A stretch of 64,000 nt of DNA. Source: Mesorhizobium sp. C432A (lineage in GTDB: Bacteria > Pseudomonadota > Alphaproteobacteria > Rhizobiales > Rhizobiaceae). The first letter of the stretch is position 1. Every line of letters begins with the position of its first letter. Below are positions 14,034 through 21,588 of the stretch, piece by piece. Where the stretch lies: assembly GCF_030323145.1 (NCBI RefSeq), contig NZ_CP100470.1, positions 3,265,001 to 3,329,000 of the forward strand, written 5' to 3'. The translations under genes were made by a program, and so were the position numbers. The notes under the pieces were generated by a model. The model made no database searches, was not told the DNA's origin, and saw nothing but the letters and a program-made list of their open reading frames with translations.

Positions 14034-15439
14034 TGAAGATGCCGCAGACCATCGGCCTTGTGCATTTCATCGGCATTGGCGGCATCGGCATGAGCGGCAT
14101 CGCCGAGGTTCTGCACAATCTCGGCTACAAGGTGCAGGGTTCGGACCAGGCCGACAGCGCCAATGTCCAGCGGCTGCGCGACAAGGGCATCGAATGCTTT
14201 GTCGGCCACAAGGCCGAGAATATCGGCGCGGCCGAAGTGGTGGTCGTCTCCACCGCGATCAAGAAATCCAATCCCGAGCTGAAGGCCGCGCGCGAAAAAC
14301 TGCTGCCGATCGTGCGCCGGGCCGAGATGCTGGCCGAACTGATGCGCTTCCGCCAGGCGGTCGCGATCGGTGGCACGCATGGCAAGACCACAACCACGTC
14401 GATGGTGGCGACGCTGCTCGATGCCGGCGGGCTCGACCCGACGGTGATCAATGGCGGCATCATCAATGCCTATGGCACCAATGCCCGTATGGGCGATGGC
14501 GAGTGGATGGTGGTCGAAGCCGACGAAAGCGACGGCACCTTCCTCAAGCTGCCGGCCGAGATCGCCGTCGTCACAAACATCGATCCCGAGCATCTGGACC
14601 ATTATGGCAGTTTCGACAAGGTGCGCGAGGCGTTCCGGCAATTCGTCGAGAACGTGCCGTTCTACGGTTTTGGCGTGATGTGCACCGACCATCCGGAAGT
14701 ACAGGCGCTGGTCAGCCGCATCGAGGACCGCCGCGTCATCACCTATGGCGAGAACGCGCAGGCCGATGTGCGTTTCACCAACCACCGGATGGCCGGTGCC
14801 GTCTCGGCATTCGACGTGGTGATCCGCGACCGCAAGACCGGCGGCCAGACGACGATATCGGATCTGCGGCTGCCGATGCCCGGCCGCCACAACGTCTCCA
14901 ACGCCACCGCCGCAATTGCGGTCGCGCATGAACTCGGCCTATCGGCCGAAGCGATCAAGAAAGGGCTGTCGTCCTTTGCCGGCGTCAAGCGGCGCTTCAC
15001 CCACACCGGCTCGTGGAACGGCGTCGACATCTTCGACGATTACGGCCACCACCCGGTCGAGATCACGGCGGTGTTGAAAGCGGCGCGCAGCGCCACCAAG
15101 GGCCGCGTCATCGCCATTGCGCAGCCGCACCGCTTCACCCGGCTGCACGATCTGTTCGACGAGTTTTCGGTCTGTTTCAACGATGCCGACACGGTGATGG
15201 TGGCGCCGGTCTATGCGGCGGGCGAGGAGCCGATCGACGGCGTGACCTCGGAGGCGCTGGTGTCGCGCATCCGCTCCGGGGGCCATCGCGATGCGCGCTA
15301 CGTCGAAACCCCTGCCGCGATTTCGCCCGTCATCCGCGCGTTGGCGAAACCGGGCGACTTCGTCATCTTCCTGGGCGCCGGCAACATCACCCAATGGGCC
15401 TATGCGCTGCCTGGGGAACTCGGCGGTACCGTCTCATGA
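14033..15439 (+). CDS. murC: UDP-N-acetylmuramate:L-alanine ligase
   Basis: 468-residue Mur ligase that starts stem-peptide synthesis. [22 protein letters not shown] is the N-terminal UDP-MurNAc-binding block and [12 protein letters not shown] the P-loop. [14 protein letters not shown] and [14 protein letters not shown] are catalytic and C-terminal signatures. The ATG at 14033 has AGGAAAGGG upstream and overlaps the murG stop (TGATG). A TTG at 14030 is a one-codon alternative. It overlaps murB by four bases. Confidence 0.96.
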
Positions 15440-16401
15440 TGCGCGGCCAGGACCTGCTCGACAAACTTGGCGACCGGCTTGCCGGCCTGCGCGGCCGCAT
15501 CACGCCCAATGCCGAGATGGACAAGATCACCTGGTTCCGCGCCGGCGGTCTGGCGGACGCCCTGTTCCAGCCGGCCGACGAGGAGGATCTGGCTGCCTTC
15601 CTGCGCGCCGTGCCGGAGGACATCCCGCTCACCATCGTCGGTGTCGGCTCCAACCTCCTGGTGCGCGACGGCGGCATTCCGGGTTTCGTCATCCGGCTTT
15701 CGGCCAAGGGCTTTGGCGAAGCCGAGGTGGTTTCGCCGACCGTCATCAAGGCCGGTGCTGCGACGCCCGACAAGCGCGTCGCGGCCGTCGCTTATGAGGC
15801 CGGTATTGGCGGCTTTCATTTCTATCACGGCATTCCCGGCGCCATCGGCGGGGCGCTGAGGATGAATGCCGGCGCCAATGGCGTCGAGACGCGGGAACGT
15901 GTCGTCGAGGTTCGGGCGCTCGACCGCAAGGGCAATCTCCACACCCTCAGCAATGAAGACATGGGCTATGCCTATCGTCACTCGGCCGCACCTGCCGGGC
16001 TGATCTTCACCTCCGCCGTTTTCGAAGGTGTTCTGGAAGACCAGGAGGCGATCAAGGCGGCCATGGACGCCGTCCAGACGCATCGCGAGACGGTGCAGCC
16101 GATCCGCGAGAAGACCGGCGGCTCGACCTTCAAGAATCCGGAAGGCACCTCGGCCTGGAAGGAAATCGACAAGGCCGGCTGCCGCGGGCTGATGATCGGC
16201 GGCGCGCAGATGTCGCCGATGCACTGCAACTTCATGATCAACACCGGAACAGCGACCGGATACGACCTCGAATATCTCGGCGAGACGGTGCGCGCCCGCG
16301 TGCTTGAAAATTCAGGCATCCGCCTGCAGTGGGAAATCAAGCGGCTCGGCAATTTCCGCCCCGGCCATGCCGTGCAGGAATTCCTCGGACAGCTTCTTTA
16401 G
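15436..16401 (+). CDS. murB: UDP-N-acetylenolpyruvoylglucosamine reductase
   Basis: 321-residue FAD-dependent reductase giving UDP-MurNAc. The FAD-binding PCMH fold is seen in [22 protein letters not shown] and [40 protein letters not shown] and the catalytic serine block [12 protein letters not shown] (around residues 228-239) follow. It starts on ATG at 15436 overlapping murC; ATG at 15439 is possible. It is the last gene of the first dcw block and is followed by a hairpin and a 302-bp gap. Confidence 0.96.
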
Positions 16402-16408
16402 CGCAAGC

Positions 16409-16435
16409 TGAAGTTCATGTGATGCTTGAACTTCA
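16409..16435 (+). terminator. Hairpin after murB
   Basis: TGAAGTTCA (16409-16417) and TGAACTTCA (16427-16435) form a perfect 9-bp stem with a 9-base loop, 8 bases after the murB stop. No T-run follows, so a factor-independent terminator is uncertain. It marks the boundary between the two dcw blocks. Confidence 0.4.
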
Positions 16436-16471
16436 AACGGTCTGAAACAACAGCGCCACCGTTGCTCCAAA

Positions 16472-16649
16472 GACTCACAACACGCTTTTTCCGGCCGTTT
16501 TCGCGGAAAGTGAATCTGTCGGAATCATAAGCACTTGCCAGCGAATCAACTCTCTGATTCTCTGCCTTAAAGCGTTTCCTGATTTGAGTCGTTCGACGCG
16601 TCGACCGCGTTTTCCGTCTGGGGGGCAACCTGCCGGGAGACTCGGACTC
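16472..16649. promoter_or_regulatory. Cluster of eight GANTC sites upstream of ddl-ftsQAZ
   Basis: GANTC, the target of the alphaproteobacterial cell-cycle methyltransferase CcrM, occurs at 16472, 16512, 16522, 16543, 16556, 16586, 16639 and 16645. About 0.6 sites would be expected in 178 bp at this base composition. The gap upstream of mraZ (2349-2684) has none. In Caulobacter, methylated GANTC sites in promoters are read by GcrA at division genes. That this stretch holds a cell-cycle promoter for ddl-ftsQ-ftsA-ftsZ is inference; no convincing -35/-10 was assigned. Confidence 0.6.
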
Positions 16650-16703
16650 AATCTGGTCGCTGAATGCGTGGTTGCGGGCCCGCCGTGAGAGGGATGACGG
16701 GAT

Positions 16704-17630
16704 ATGAAGAACAAGCATGTGGCTGTCCTCCTGGGCGGATTCTCGTCCGAGCGGCCCGTGTCTCTGTCTTCGGGAAAGGCGTGTGCGGATGCGCTTGAGA
16801 ATGAAGGCTACCAGGTTACCCGCGTCGATGTTGCGCGCGATGTCGGCGCCGTGCTCGCCGAACTCAAGCCCGATGTCGTCTTCAACGCACTGCACGGCCC
16901 GTTCGGTGAAGACGGCACCATCCAGGGCATCCTCGAATATCTGGCCATTCCCTACACCCATTCGGGCGTGCTCGCCTCGGCGCTCGCCATGAACAAGGAG
17001 CAAGCCAAGAAGGTCGCCAAGGCTGCCGGCATCGCGGTGGCGGAATCGAAGGTTGCCAGCCGCTTTGCCATCCAGAACAAGCATCCGATGAAGCCGCCCT
17101 ACGTGGTCAAGCCGGTCAATGAAGGCTCAAGCTTCGGCGTCGTCATCGTGCATGAAGGGCAGTCGCATCCGCCGCAGGTCATCGGCTCGTCCGAATGGAA
17201 ATATGGCGAGACCGTCATGGTCGAGCGCTACATCCATGGGCGCGAGCTGACCTGCGCCGTCATGGGCGACGTGGCGCTCGGCGTCTGCGAGATCATTCCG
17301 ACCGGCCATTCCTTCTACGACTATGATTCAAAATACGTCGCCGGCGGATCAAAACACGAAATCCCTGCTAAAATTTCATCAAATATTTACCAAAAAATAC
17401 AGACACTGGCGCTCAAGGCACATCTGGCTATCGGCTGCCGGGGCGTTTCCCGATCGGACTTCCGCTATGACGACCGTCACTCCGAAAACGGCGAGATTGT
17501 CTGGCTCGAGATCAACACTCAGCCGGGCATGACGCCGACGTCTTTGGTGCCTGAAATCGCCGCCCAGGCCGGGCACTCGTTTGGCGAATTGTTGAGTTGG
17601 ATGGTGGAGGACGCTTCGTGTCTGCGTTGA
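16704..17630 (+). CDS. ddl: D-alanine--D-alanine ligase
   Basis: 308-residue ATP-grasp enzyme making D-Ala-D-Ala for Mur[20 protein letters not shown] is the N-terminal signature and [15 protein letters not shown] the second. [11 protein letters not shown] (about residues 138-148) is the ATP-binding loop and [20 protein letters not shown] holds the metal and dipeptide residues. The ATG at 16704 follows GAGAGGGATGACGGG. It heads the second dcw block, downstream of the GANTC cluster, and overlaps ftsQ by 13 bases. Codons for residues about 208-234 (17326-17405) are strikingly A/T-rich compared with the rest of the gene. Confidence 0.95.
17326..17405 (+). promoter_or_regulatory. A/T-rich island inside ddl, candidate internal promoter for ftsQAZ
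   Basis: Bases 17351-17405 are only about 27% GC, against more than 60% around them, although the protein sequence there ([18 protein letters not shown]) is ordinary for Ddl. The bias comes from synonymous choices such as AAA, ATT, TCA, AAT and ATA, otherwise rare in this cluster. It lies about 210-290 bases upstream of ftsQ. Internal ftsQ promoters inside ddlB are known in E. coli. The composition is seen directly; promoter function is inference. Confidence 0.35.
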
Positions 17631-18559
17631 AATGGGGACAGGACAAGGGCAGGGGCGGCGCCGGGCCGGCGCTGTTCGGCATGTCGTTGTCGTTCGACCA
17701 TTTCGTGCTGCCGCGCGTGCTGCGCCGGCCGGTGCGCGTGCTGGCGCGCCTGGGCGGCGGCGACTTCGTCGCGCCGCGCTTTTCCGCGGCCATCCTTTCG
17801 GCTTCGCTCATTGCATCAAGCAGCCTCTATGGCGCCATTCTCGGCGGTCATGCCGACGACATCGTCCAGAGCATCACCGCCCGGACCGGCTTTGCCGTCG
17901 ACCAGATCAAGGTGGTCGGCAACCGCCAGACTTCGGAGATCGACATACTGGACCGGCTCGAGCTCGACGGCTGGACGTCACTGATCGGCTTCGATGCCGA
18001 GGCCGCGCGTGAACGTATTGATACCTTGCCCTGGGTCGAAGTGGCGGCGGTGCGCAAGGTCTATCCACATACGCTGGAAGTGCGTGTCGAGGAGCGCGAG
18101 CCCTTCGCGCTCTGGCAGCAGGGCGCGGAGCTTTCGGTCATCGAACGCTCCGGCGCGGTGATCGCGCCGTTCTCCGGCGGCAAGCAGGCGCTGCTGCCGC
18201 TGATCATCGGCACCGGCGCACCGGCCAAGGCGCCCGACTTCGTGGCCAAGATCAACAAATTTCCCGAGCTCGCGGCTCGGGTCAAAGGCTATATCCGCAT
18301 CGGCGAACGGCGCTGGGATCTTAAGCTGGAAAACGGCATCACGATCAAGCTGCCCGAGGATGGCGAGGATCAGGCGATCGCCGATCTGGTTCGGATGGAC
18401 CACGACAACGGGCTTCTGACGCGGGACATCGCCGCCGTCGACATGCGCATCTCCGATCGCCTGGTGGTACAGCTGACGCCGGAAGCGGCGACGCAGCGCC
18501 AGGCCGCGCTCAATGAAAAGCCGCAAAATCTGAAGCGCAAGTCGGGGACGAAGATATGA
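17618..18559 (+). CDS. ftsQ: Cell division protein FtsQ
   Basis: 313-residue bitopic divisome protein bridging cytoplasmic and periplasmic components. A long cytoplasmic N-terminus is followed by one membrane segment ([19 protein letters not shown], around residues 50-68). A POTRA domain ([23 protein letters not shown]) and the FtsQ domain ([30 protein letters not shown]) come next. Start chosen at GTG 17618 because GTGGAGG lies 7 bases upstream; ATG at 17597 would add seven residues. It overlaps ddl upstream and ftsA downstream (ATGA). Confidence 0.92.
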
Positions 18560-19863
18560 GCTGGCTTGGCGGCAACAGCGATGCCTCTTCGCGGCGTTCC
18601 GGCACGCTCACCGTGCTGGATGTCGGCTCGAGCAAGGTTTGCTGCGTGGTGGCGAAACTGAAGCCGCGCGAGGACGGCAAGCTGTTGCGCGGCCGCTCGC
18701 ACCGCATCCAGGTGATCGGCATCGGCCACCAGAAATCGCAAGGCGTGAAGTCGGGCGTGGTCGTCGATCTCGACCGCGCGGAGCACGCCATTCGCCTGTC
18801 CGTCGACGCAGCCGAACGCATGGCGGGACTGACCGTGGATTCGCTGATCGTCAACATGACGGCCGGCCGGCTGAAGAGCGAAACCTATTCGGCCACCATC
18901 AATCTCGGTGGCCATCAGGCCGACGAAGCCGACATCAAGCGCGTGCTTGCCGCCGGCGCCAAGCAGGCGCTCAAGGCCGAACGCGACGTGATCCATTCGC
19001 TGCCCGTCGGCTTTTCGCTGGACGCCGAGCGCGGCGTGCGCGATCCGCGCGGCATGGTCGGCGACCAACTCGGCGTCGATATGCATGTGCTGACGGGCGA
19101 TGCCGCGCCGCTGCGCAATCTGGAGCTATGCATCAACCGCTCGCATCTTTCGGTCGAGCGCATGGTGGCGACGCCCTATGCCAGCGGGCTTGCGGCCCTG
19201 GTCGACGACGAACTGGAAATGGGTGCGGCCTGCATCGACATGGGCGGCGGCACGACGACCATCTCGGTGTTTTCGGAAGGCAAATTCGTCCACGCCGATG
19301 CCATTGCCATCGGCGGCAATCATGTGACGCTCGATATGGCCAAGGGCCTGTCGACCTCGCTCGACGCCGCGGAGCGGCTGAAGGTGATGCATGGTTCGGC
19401 GCTGCCCGGCAGTGCCGACGATCGCGACCTGGTCTCGATCCAGCCGATCGGCGAAGACGGCGAGATGCCGCTGCAGATCCCGCGCTCGGTGATGACGCGC
19501 GTCATCCGCGCCCGCATCGACGAGACGCTGGAACTGTTGCGCGACCGGCTGAACAAGTCGGGCTACGGCAATGCCGTGGGAAAACGCGTCGTGCTGACCG
19601 GCGGCGCCAGCCAGCTTGCGGGTCTCCCCGAGGCGGCGCGCCGCATTCTGGGACGCAATGTGCGCATCGGACGCCCGCTCGGCGTGGCGGGCCTGCCGGA
19701 AGCTGCCAAGGGGCCGGCTTTCTCGACGGCGGTCGGGCTGCTGATCTATCCGCAGATGGCGAGCTTCGAGAGCCATCCGGCGAAAGGAATTTCCGGTCTC
19801 AGGATGACCGGAACGGGCGGAAAACTGCATCGCATGAGTCAGTGGTTGAGAGACAGTTTCTAA
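18556..19863 (+). CDS. ftsA: Cell division protein FtsA
   Basis: 435-residue actin-like ATPase that tethers FtsZ to the membrane. The phosphate-1 loop is TVLDVGSSKVCCVVAKL, and the phosphate-2 region ACIDMGGGTTTISVFSEGKFVHADAIAIGGNHVTLD is clear. VVLTGGASQLAGLPEAARRILG is the adenosine motif. The last residues (LHRMSQWLRDSF) form the amphipathic membrane-targeting helix. Starts within the ftsQ stop (ATGA). A 66-bp gap with GGACGGAGACA before the next ATG separates it from ftsZ. Confidence 0.96.
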   Translation: MSWLGGNSDASSRRSGTLTVLDVGSSKVCCVVAKLKPREDGKLLRGRSHRIQVIGIGHQKSQGVKSGVVVDLDRAEHAIRLSVDAAERMAGLTVDSLIVNMTAGRLKSETYSATINLGGHQADEADIKRVLAAGAKQALKAERDVIHSLPVGFSLDAERGVRDPRGMVGDQLGVDMHVLTGDAAPLRNLELCINRSHLSVERMVATPYASGLAALVDDELEMGAACIDMGGGTTTISVFSEGKFVHADAIAIGGNHVTLDMAKGLSTSLDAAERLKVMHGSALPGSADDRDLVSIQPIGEDGEMPLQIPRSVMTRVIRARIDETLELLRDRLNKSGYGNAVGKRVVLTGGASQLAGLPEAARRILGRNVRIGRPLGVAGLPEAAKGPAFSTAVGLLIYPQMASFESHPAKGISGLRMTGTGGKLHRMSQWLRDSF

Positions 19864-19929: not shown

Positions 19930-21588
19930 ATGACGATCAATCTGCAAAAGCCGGACATCACCGAGCTCAAGCCGCGGATCACCGTATTCGGTGTCGGCGG
20001 CGGCGGCGGCAATGCCGTCAACAACATGATCACCGCGGGCTTGCGCGGTGTCGAGTTCGTCGTGGCCAACACCGATGCACAGGCGCTGACCATGTCGAAG
20101 GCCGAGCGGCTGATCCAGCTCGGCGCGCATGTCACCGAGGGGCTCGGCGCCGGCTCGCAGCCTGAAGTGGGCCGTGCGGCGGCGGAAGAGTGCATCGATG
20201 AGATCATCGATCATCTCTCCAACACCCATATGTGCTTCGTCACCGCCGGTATGGGTGGCGGCACCGGAACCGGTGCGGCTCCCGTGGTTGCCCGCGCGGC
20301 GCGCGAACGGGGTATCCTCACCGTCGGCGTCGTCACCAAGCCGTTCCATTTCGAAGGCCAGCGCCGCATGAAGACGGCGGATCTCGGCATCGAGGAGCTG
20401 CAGAAATGTGTCGATACCCTGATCGTCATCCCCAACCAGAACCTGTTCCGGCTGGCGAATGACAAAACCACCTTTGCCGACGCCTTCGCCATGGCCGACC
20501 AGGTGCTCTACTCCGGTGTTGCCTGCATCACCGACCTGATGGTCAAGGAAGGCCTGATCAATCTCGACTTCGCCGACGTGCGTTCGGTGATGCGCGAAAT
20601 GGGCAAGGCGATGATGGGCACCGGCGAAGCTTCGGGCGAGGGCCGCGCGATGGCCGCCGCCGAGGCGGCGATCGCCAATCCGTTGCTCGACGAGACCTCG
20701 ATGAGGGGCGCCAAGGGCCTGCTGATCTCGATCACCGGCGGCCGCGACCTGACCCTGTTCGAAGTCGACGAGGCCGCGACCCGCATCCGCGAGGAAGTCG
20801 ACCAGGACGCCAACATCATCCTCGGCGCCACCTTCGACGAGGAACTCGAAGGCGTCATCCGCGTCTCGGTGGTCGCCACCGGCATCGACAAATCGGCAGC
20901 TGAAATTGCCGCGGCGCCGATCTCGATCCGGGCCGTGCCGCCGCAGCAGAAGCCGGTCAGCCGCCCAGCGGCTCCGGGGGCGGAAGGCCGTCCGGCACCG
21001 GTCCAGCAGCAGACCTATGAGCAGCGCGCGGCCGATCCGGTGGCCGAGGCGATCCAGCTTGCCGAGGCCAATGCGGCGGCAATGGCTCGTCCGGCGCCGA
21101 TGGCCCAGGCGGAAGATTTCCGCCCGCAGAGCAAGATCTTCCAGGCCCCGCCTGCCCAGCCGCAGCCTGTCGTGCAGCAGGTGATGCAACCGGCGCCGAT
21201 GCGGGAAATGCCGCAGCCGGTGGCTGCCGCACCGCAGCGCATGCCGCGGGTGGAGGATTTTCCGCCGGTGGTGCGGGCCGAGGTGGAAGCCAAGGGCCGT
21301 CCGGCCGACCATGAAAACAGCGGGCCGATGGGGCTGCTCAAGCGGCTGACCAACGGGCTGACGCGCCGCGAAGAAGAGCCGGCCCGGTTGCAGCCGGCAC
21401 AGCCGCGCGAACCGAAACTGCGCCAGGCGGCGCCGGAAATGCGCCGCCTTGCCAGCCAGGATCCGCAGCTTTACGCGCCGCGCCGCGGCCAGCTCGACGA
21501 TCAGGGCCGGTTGACGCCGCAGACCAGGTCGACCCAGGAAGACGACCAGCTGGAGATACCGGCTTTCCTGCGCCGCCAGGCCAACTGA
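19930..21588 (+). CDS. ftsZ: Cell division GTPase FtsZ
   Basis: 552-residue tubulin homologue forming the Z-ring. The GTPase core ends near residue 317; its T4 loop is G109-GGTGTG and the T7 catalytic segment is [13 protein letters not shown]. After it comes an unusually long disordered linker of roughly 215 residues, rich in Pro, Gln and Ala. The C-terminal peptide [12 protein letters not shown] (541-552) binds FtsA and other partners. Long linkers are typical of Rhizobiales FtsZ. A strong hairpin follows the stop codon. Confidence 0.97.

Follow-up and report, generated by a model that had tools for sequence, protein, structure and literature searches.

The 302-bp gap between murB and ddl of Mesorhizobium sp. 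C432A contains eight GANTC sites within 178 bp, and the cluster is built around a core, CTTGCCA-N2-GANTC-N7-TGATTC, that is probably a sigma70 promoter of ddl-ftsQAZ, with CcrM sites set into its spacer and its extended -10 element, likely assisted by GcrA and with an output that would follow replication. The positions of these sites, their conservation, the fixed and promoter-like spacing, the presence of ccrM and gcrA genes and indications that GANTC itself is under selection are all directly observed. A predicted promoter upstream of ddl with built-in methylation sites is a concrete candidate for the timing of ftsQAZ in the Rhizobiales. Coordinates are those of the window, the whole 64,000-nucleotide stretch that was analyzed (NZ_CP100470.1, positions 3,265,001 to 3,329,000).

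The GANTC cluster and the predicted promoter core

The gap (16402..16703, forward strand) runs from the murB stop at 16401 to the ATG of ddl at 16704. The ddl gene (16704..17630, forward strand; Pfam PF07478 and PF01820) is the first of a ddl-ftsQ-ftsA-ftsZ run and shares 98% identity with its counterparts in Mesorhizobium caraganae and Mesorhizobium sp. WSM4306. It is followed on the same strand by the ORFs of ftsQ (about 17681-18559, start inferred), ftsA (18556-19863) and ftsZ (19930-21588), which, like mraZ, were named by eye from their translations.

Eight GANTC sites begin at 16472, 16512, 16522, 16543, 16556, 16586, 16639 and 16645, exactly as listed in the initial annotation, and the nearest sites outside the cluster are at 16134 (in murB) and 16738 (in ddl). 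The motif is otherwise depleted, with 80 occurrences in the window versus 314 on average after dinucleotide shuffling. In a sample of the same genome, comprising the window plus 60 stretches of 20 kb (21% of the single 6.02-Mb contig), 1577 sites were counted in 1.264 Mb, or 1.25 per kb, with rates of about 1.08 per kb in coding-like and 1.99 per kb in intergenic-like sequence under a rough ORF mask. At the intergenic-like rate 0.35 sites would be expected per 178 bp, so that the initial estimate of about 0.6 was of the right order, and the Poisson probability of eight or more is 4e-9. When the sample was ranked by 178-bp stretches, rather than by whole gaps, the cluster was the densest, the next best stretches held five, five and five sites, and none equaled it. 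The 336-bp gap before mraZ (start inferred) contains no GANTC, as had also been claimed, and there is likewise none in the ddl-ftsQ and ftsA-ftsZ gaps.

A search of the organism's own genome placed the gap DNA at a single location, and a repeated or mobile element was rejected on this ground. An RNA family was also rejected, since 15400-17700 gave no Rfam match at E ≤ 1 and hence no known structured RNA leader. Directly after the murB stop, at 16409-16435, lies a perfect 9-bp inverted repeat (TGAAGTTCA/TGAACTTCA) that was not called by a terminator scan and is retained in part of the genus alignment.

Reading downstream, site 1 (GACTC, 16472..16476) is intact in 23 of 24 Mesorhizobium loci, and sites 2 (GAATC, 16512..16516) and 3 (GAATC, 16522..16526), at predicted positions of about -58 and -48, are intact in all 24, site 3 with a changed N in one of them. 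There follow the predicted -35 element TTGCCA (16535..16540, forward strand, within CTTGCCA); site 4 (GAATC, 16543..16547; 22 of 24 loci), which lies in the -35/-10 spacer and is termed site A; and the predicted extended -10 element TGATTCTCT (16555..16563, forward strand), with its TG extension at 16555-16556 and its hexamer, TTCTCT, at 16558-16563 after a 17-bp spacer. Site 5 (16556-16560; 24 of 24) is located inside this predicted extended -10 element and covers -14 to -10. Hexamer spacing would put the transcription start at 16570 on the forward strand, give or take a few bases, and the leader to ddl at about 134 bases. Beyond this start, the sequence TGAGTCG (16585..16591, forward strand; 24 of 24) matches YGAKTCG and is termed site C; it includes site 6 (16586-16590) and would occupy +16 to +22. 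Sites 7 and 8 (GACTCGGACTC, 16639..16649) are the least conserved, at 18 and 21 of the 24 loci.

Promoters activated by GcrA have been reported to carry the motif YGAKTCG or YGAKTCK (PMC7987155, PMC8725594), and both forms occur here, as TGAGTCG at 16585 and TGATTCT at 16555. By the criterion related in PMC7987155, the motif of a GcrA/CcrM-dependent promoter lies no more than 40 bp from a start site that has been mapped; the placement of YGAKTCG here fits the predicted start near 16570. In Caulobacter, GANTC between -10 and -35 has been associated with activation at 40-60 min (PMC4287350), and the sites at 16543 and 16556, both inside the TTG-N18-GATTC core, lie between and over the predicted -35 and -10 elements.

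A sigma70 consensus scan of 16200-16800 returned no sigma70-like site, which we read as a sign of a poor -10 element rather than of an absent promoter. The predicted -11 base is T, where a good -10 element would have A; this is both a weak point of the promoter reading and a reason for an activator. GcrA would be the natural candidate, since it has been reported to bind sigma region 2 and to help open methylated promoters (PMC7403470). Across the 1.26-Mb sample there is no peak of TTG at 21 bp before GANTC, and TTG-N18-GATTC occurs 29 further times, counting both strands.

What we infer from these observations is that the promoter is active, where transcription begins, that the sites are methylated, that GcrA acts there and when the genes are expressed; the proposed mechanism is as follows. 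The sigma70 RNA polymerase would bind CTTGCCA as a -35 element and, 17 bp on, TGATTCTCT as an extended -10. Built into and around this predicted promoter would be CcrM sites in the spacer and in the extended -10, a YGAKTCG about 17 bp past the start and two sites upstream. Methylation of the site in the extended -10 would give m6A at -13 in the top strand and, in the template strand, across from -11, and the methylated sites would let the sigma70 cofactor GcrA aid promoter opening. Passage of the replication fork would leave the sites hemimethylated until CcrM returns, and in this way division-gene output could follow replication of the ddl locus. Control by methylation and GcrA is suggested by the retention of GANTC while its N varies, by the retention of YGAKTCG and by published work on other organisms.

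Both proteins that the mechanism calls for are encoded by the organism. A CcrM-like ORF of 381 aa has PF01555 and RAMA domains and a best NCBIfam match, NF050803, of 645 bits (under the cut-off of 830), and a 172-aa GcrA passes Pfam with 198 bits to PF07750 and has an NCBIfam score of 159, under the cut-off of 280. A second, weaker GcrA-family match (34 bits) was found at another locus (L163, G000:C1:3446200-3446499) and has an internal TGA. All four GANTC sites of a 3.5-kb locus fall within the 181 bp upstream of gcrA (L162:1320-1467); this concentration suggests that gcrA may itself be under CcrM control, and in A. tumefaciens gcrA has been reported to rise upon CcrM depletion (PMC11514494).

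Other GANTC groupings were also observed in the genome. Four sites lie within 162 bp at the start of parE, encoding topoisomerase IV subunit B (TIGR01055; L047:1734-1895, about 4601734 of G000:C1), and the 13-bp pair GANTC-N8-GANTC occurs at only two places in the 1.26-Mb sample, the murB-ddl gap and parE. Topoisomerase IV subunit B has been reported to be lowered in Caulobacter lacking CcrM (PMC3973325). In addition, the dnaG-rpoD gap has five sites in 100 bp (L041:8661-8760, about 2808661 of G000:C1), together with TTGAC-N17-GAATC.

Conservation in Mesorhizobium and the Rhizobiaceae

The genus set comprised 24 loci, including the window's own (L002-L025); one further genome, G007, contributed none, its ddl match being partial. 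Each of the 24 has five to nine GANTC sites before ddl at near-constant spacing, six of the eight sites of the window are retained in 22-24 of them, and a conserved core of about 95 bp extends beyond the GANTC sites themselves. The N is altered with GANTC intact in three loci (L008, L015 and L016). At the spacer site (16543), N has changed in two loci and the site has been lost in L017 and L018, and L024 has lost the site at 16472 and both of the last sites. In L020 and L022, the 1.5 kb upstream of ddl yielded no murB, and the GANTC element is present.

Across the family, a 106-bp core query produced matches anywhere in the genome (E ≤ 0.1) in 81 of 199 genomes and 49 of 109 genera. The 1 kb upstream of ddl was read in 80 of the 108 other genera, leaving aside G148 and the 27 with the most diverged ddl. 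TTG-N18-GATTC was found in the 400 bp before ddl, read on the coding strand, in 61 of the 80, a fraction that is probably high because the 27 genera left out are the most diverged; a blastn core match at E ≤ 0.1 occurs in four of these 27. The expectation from the own-genome sample is 0.005 per 400 bp, the reverse strand gave the pattern in one of 80 genera, and 19 other spacings (10-17 and 19-29) gave it in zero to six. The core is absent in 19 of the 80 genera. Two checks proposed by the initial annotation went in its favor: related genomes keep the sites (in all 24 genus loci, with the core in 61 of the 80 family genera read), and no second 178-bp stretch of the sample reaches the same density.

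Among the 61 loci with TTG-N18-GATTC, 59 read TCTGATTC, with TCT before GATTC, and 58 have CTTG. Sixty core genera scored above threshold and were divided into 47 of type M, defined by either a spacer GANTC or a -35 resembling CTTGYCA, and 13 of type R; the loci of both types were selected for TTG and GATTC, which are therefore invariant in the tables. For type M the consensus reads CTTGYCA-N2-GANTC-N4-CTCTGATTC. Of the 47 type-M genera, 41 have an intact spacer GANTC, and, given that type M is partly defined by this site, the counts of 41 among all 60 core genera and 38 of the 43 with a CTTGYCA-like -35 (classed by the -35 alone) are the ones to set beside it. The N of the spacer site is A, G, T or C among genera. 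Six single-base variants of GAATC were found in type M, five of them at N (GAGTC three times, GATTC and GACTC) and one elsewhere (GAAAC); five of six at N has a probability of 0.0016 when kinship is ignored, and this test of GANTC evolution was made without the pattern-selected loci L166-L282.

Other positions are conserved as well. In type M, predicted -31 is C in 46 of 47 genera and -7 is T in 40 of 47; T at -7 is also present in 12 of 13 ftsB promoters (see below) but in only two of 13 type-R genera. Of the 44 type-M genera with a GANTC in reach (three of the 47 have none), 43 have site C in the form YGAKTCG, as TGAGTCG in 38, TGATTCG in four and CGATTCG in one, the remaining genus having CGATTCC. 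It lies 29-32 bp after GATTC, with the exception of this CGATTCC, which is at 19 bp (L159). Type R has no spacer site; nine of its 13 genera have a GANTC 13 bp after GATTC, and 10 of 13 have a downstream YGAKTCG.

What appears to be constant across the family is thus a predicted promoter core with two or three GANTC sites, and density as such is not the key. The earlier reading, in which methylation controls the Z-ring half of the dcw cluster from upstream of ddl, is partly supported. Its direction is probably right: the murB-ddl gap holds an element shaped like a promoter and there is no GANTC between ftsA and ftsZ, which together make the region upstream of ddl a plausible control point.

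Two side observations belong here. In 14 of the 80 family loci (e.g., L087, L119 and L136), GGTTAACNAAAGTAAAC occurs upstream of ddl, often followed by TTAA, and looks like the site of another regulator, perhaps CtrA. Five genomes (G112, G113, G135, G143 and G168) each have a second, partial core match (E from 3.5e-4 to 0.067), which could mark additional promoters built in this way or be due to chance.

Matches outside the family and at ftsB

Scanning about 85,000 species genomes for the core pattern yielded at least 118 matches in at least 117 loci. Among the matches listed, 106 sit 89-308 bp upstream of ddl on the same strand; eight, from Sphingomonadaceae, begin 36-38 bp before an ftsB/DivIC gene; and four could not be placed, the fetched stretch ending 33-171 bp after the match begins. 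All 114 placeable matches among those listed precede ddl or ftsB, and none is elsewhere. By their record titles, the matches listed include Brucella, Ochrobactrum, Phyllobacterium, Aminobacter, Nitratireductor, Chelativorans and others. One of these loci, a contig of a metagenome-assembled genome titled Sphingomonadaceae (L167), has the core twice in tandem, 155 bp apart and 153 and 308 bp before ddl; its ddl is 81% identical to that of the window, and an error in the title or in the binning is possible. Six ddl loci of other families (L026-L031, from 16 genomes searched) have zero to two GANTC sites before ddl.

The ftsB assignment rests on one Sphingomonadaceae protein that matches PF04977 with 30.1 bits against a cut-off of 28.9, and the other seven were assigned by their 78-98% identity to it. 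At one of these loci (L203), ftsB is flanked by enolase-like and pyruvate-dehydrogenase-like ORFs, named by eye. A fixed distance between TTG and GATTC in two unrelated gene contexts is the pattern expected of a -35 and a -10 element.

The ftsB context was also examined in 39 loci that were not picked by motif: 30 from 265 genomes of the class with a PF04977 match, plus 10, with L330 dropped as coming from the same genome as L338 and L325 counted although its gene start is unsure. These loci are not independent, as some share a genus. NTTG-N18-GANTC occurs within 200 bp upstream of the matched ftsB start in 14 of the 39, versus 0.005 per 200 bp in the flanks. TTGAC-Nd-GANTC was found in 18 of 39, with d of 16 in nine, 17 in eight and 19 in one, and at no other d from 12 to 25. 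Either spacing is present in 22 of the 39 loci and neither in 17, the organism's own genome among these; its eno-ftsB gap contains no GANTC.

This likeness of design suggests that CcrM/GcrA control of division genes predates the Caulobacter examples, the regulated gene having changed. It is conceivable, and we offer it only tentatively as something less than an even prospect, that these elements belong to an old alphaproteobacterial class of division-gene promoters with a CcrM site fused into the extended -10 (TTGAC-N16/17-TGATTCNNT) and often another one in the spacer. In the template strand, methylation of the A across from -11, at the point where melting starts, would itself gate opening of the promoter together with GcrA, and replication would clock ftsB in much of the class, and ddl-ftsQAZ in the Rhizobiaceae, independently of CtrA. 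Such a class, if real, would provide a CtrA-independent link from replication to Z-ring supply. In the open-access literature, with most subscription papers outside it, no paper was found that joins GANTC with ftsB or that joins CcrM, ddl and GANTC, nor, by title and the start of the abstract, one on this point for GANTC and Mesorhizobium.

Alternative readings and known systems

The cluster could instead surround an ordinary conserved sigma70 promoter, whose bases are kept for contact with polymerase alone, TGATTC being an extended -10 that is a CcrM site by chance and its methylation of little effect. Positions outside GANTC are indeed equally conserved (CTTGCCA, and TCT before GATTC), and ftsZ of A. 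tumefaciens is reported to respond hardly at all to the loss of CcrM (PMC11514494). We nevertheless consider this rather unlikely, because the spacer GANTC lies outside both hexamers and is yet kept, with its N free, in 38 of 43 genera, the downstream YGAKTCG is kept in 43 of 44, and three more sites are retained in 23-24 of the 24 Mesorhizobium loci, in a genome where GANTC is otherwise avoided. A repressor or activator acting as a dimer, unrelated to methylation, that reads the inverted pair GAATC-N8-GATTC would account for the GAATCA/TGATTC dyad of the window and for the rarity of the 13-bp pair, which is confined in the 1.26-Mb sample to this gap and parE. The dyad is broken, though, wherever the N of its left arm varies; that arm is absent from type R, where nine of 13 genera have a pair on the other side, and at the ftsB promoters the pair is often spaced by 11 or 12 rather than 13. 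The motifs of several candidate regulators are also missing from the gap: no CtrA site (TTAA-N7-TTAA or a TTAAC half site) in 16402-16703, no LexA GTTC-N7-GTTC on either strand (PMC7987155), no SciP or DnaA consensus motif and no NtrX motif (PMC9223101). Such a dimer therefore appears improbable.

Rhizobial genomes contain many short intergenic repeats, and the five genomes with a second partial core match (E from 3.5e-4 to 0.067) are in keeping with a remnant of a mobile or repeated element. This origin, or a chance cluster, is nonetheless very hard to credit for a sequence that is single-copy in its own genome, that precedes ddl in 106 of the 114 placeable matches among those listed and that is conserved over tens of genera. 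The reading that we prefer is a ddl-ftsQAZ promoter with built-in CcrM sites.

In Brucella, GANTC has been reported as enriched 4.4-4.7-fold in GcrA peaks, and GcrA depletion generates elongated, branched cells (PMC6813329). In E. meliloti, cell-cycle promoters as a group were reported not to be enriched in GANTC (PMC8725594), and NtrX has been reported to bind and activate the ftsZ1 promoter of S. meliloti (PMC9223101). The CcrM regulon of A. tumefaciens offers a comparison with a related alphaproteobacterium, in which CcrM likewise affects transcription, including that of gcrA; unlike what is predicted here, ftsZ was hardly affected (a change of less than two-fold, or not significant, upon CcrM depletion), and ddl does not appear in the main text of that paper (PMC11514494).

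Caulobacter also links these dcw genes to its cell cycle through CtrA, which controls ftsQA and ftsZ, whereas in S. meliloti CtrA reportedly acts through minCD and in B. abortus it was reported not to bind ftsZ (PMC4433202, PMC2877005). No CtrA site is found in the gap described here, unlike the Caulobacter case.

Finally, the closest parallels are the GcrA/CcrM sigma70 promoters of Caulobacter, in which conserved GANTC marks essential genes activated by CcrM, including ftsZ, ftsN, mipZ and the gene for topoisomerase IV subunit B (PMC3973325). Features shared at the sequence level are GANTC at or between the -10 and -35 elements (predicted ones here), the YGAKTCG/K motif, an association with division and topoisomerase genes, and genes for both CcrM and GcrA. 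In contrast to Caulobacter, the predicted control point lies upstream of ddl rather than directly before ftsZ, the sites follow a near-fixed layout with one of them inside the predicted extended -10, TGATTC, and the arrangement is conserved over much of the family.
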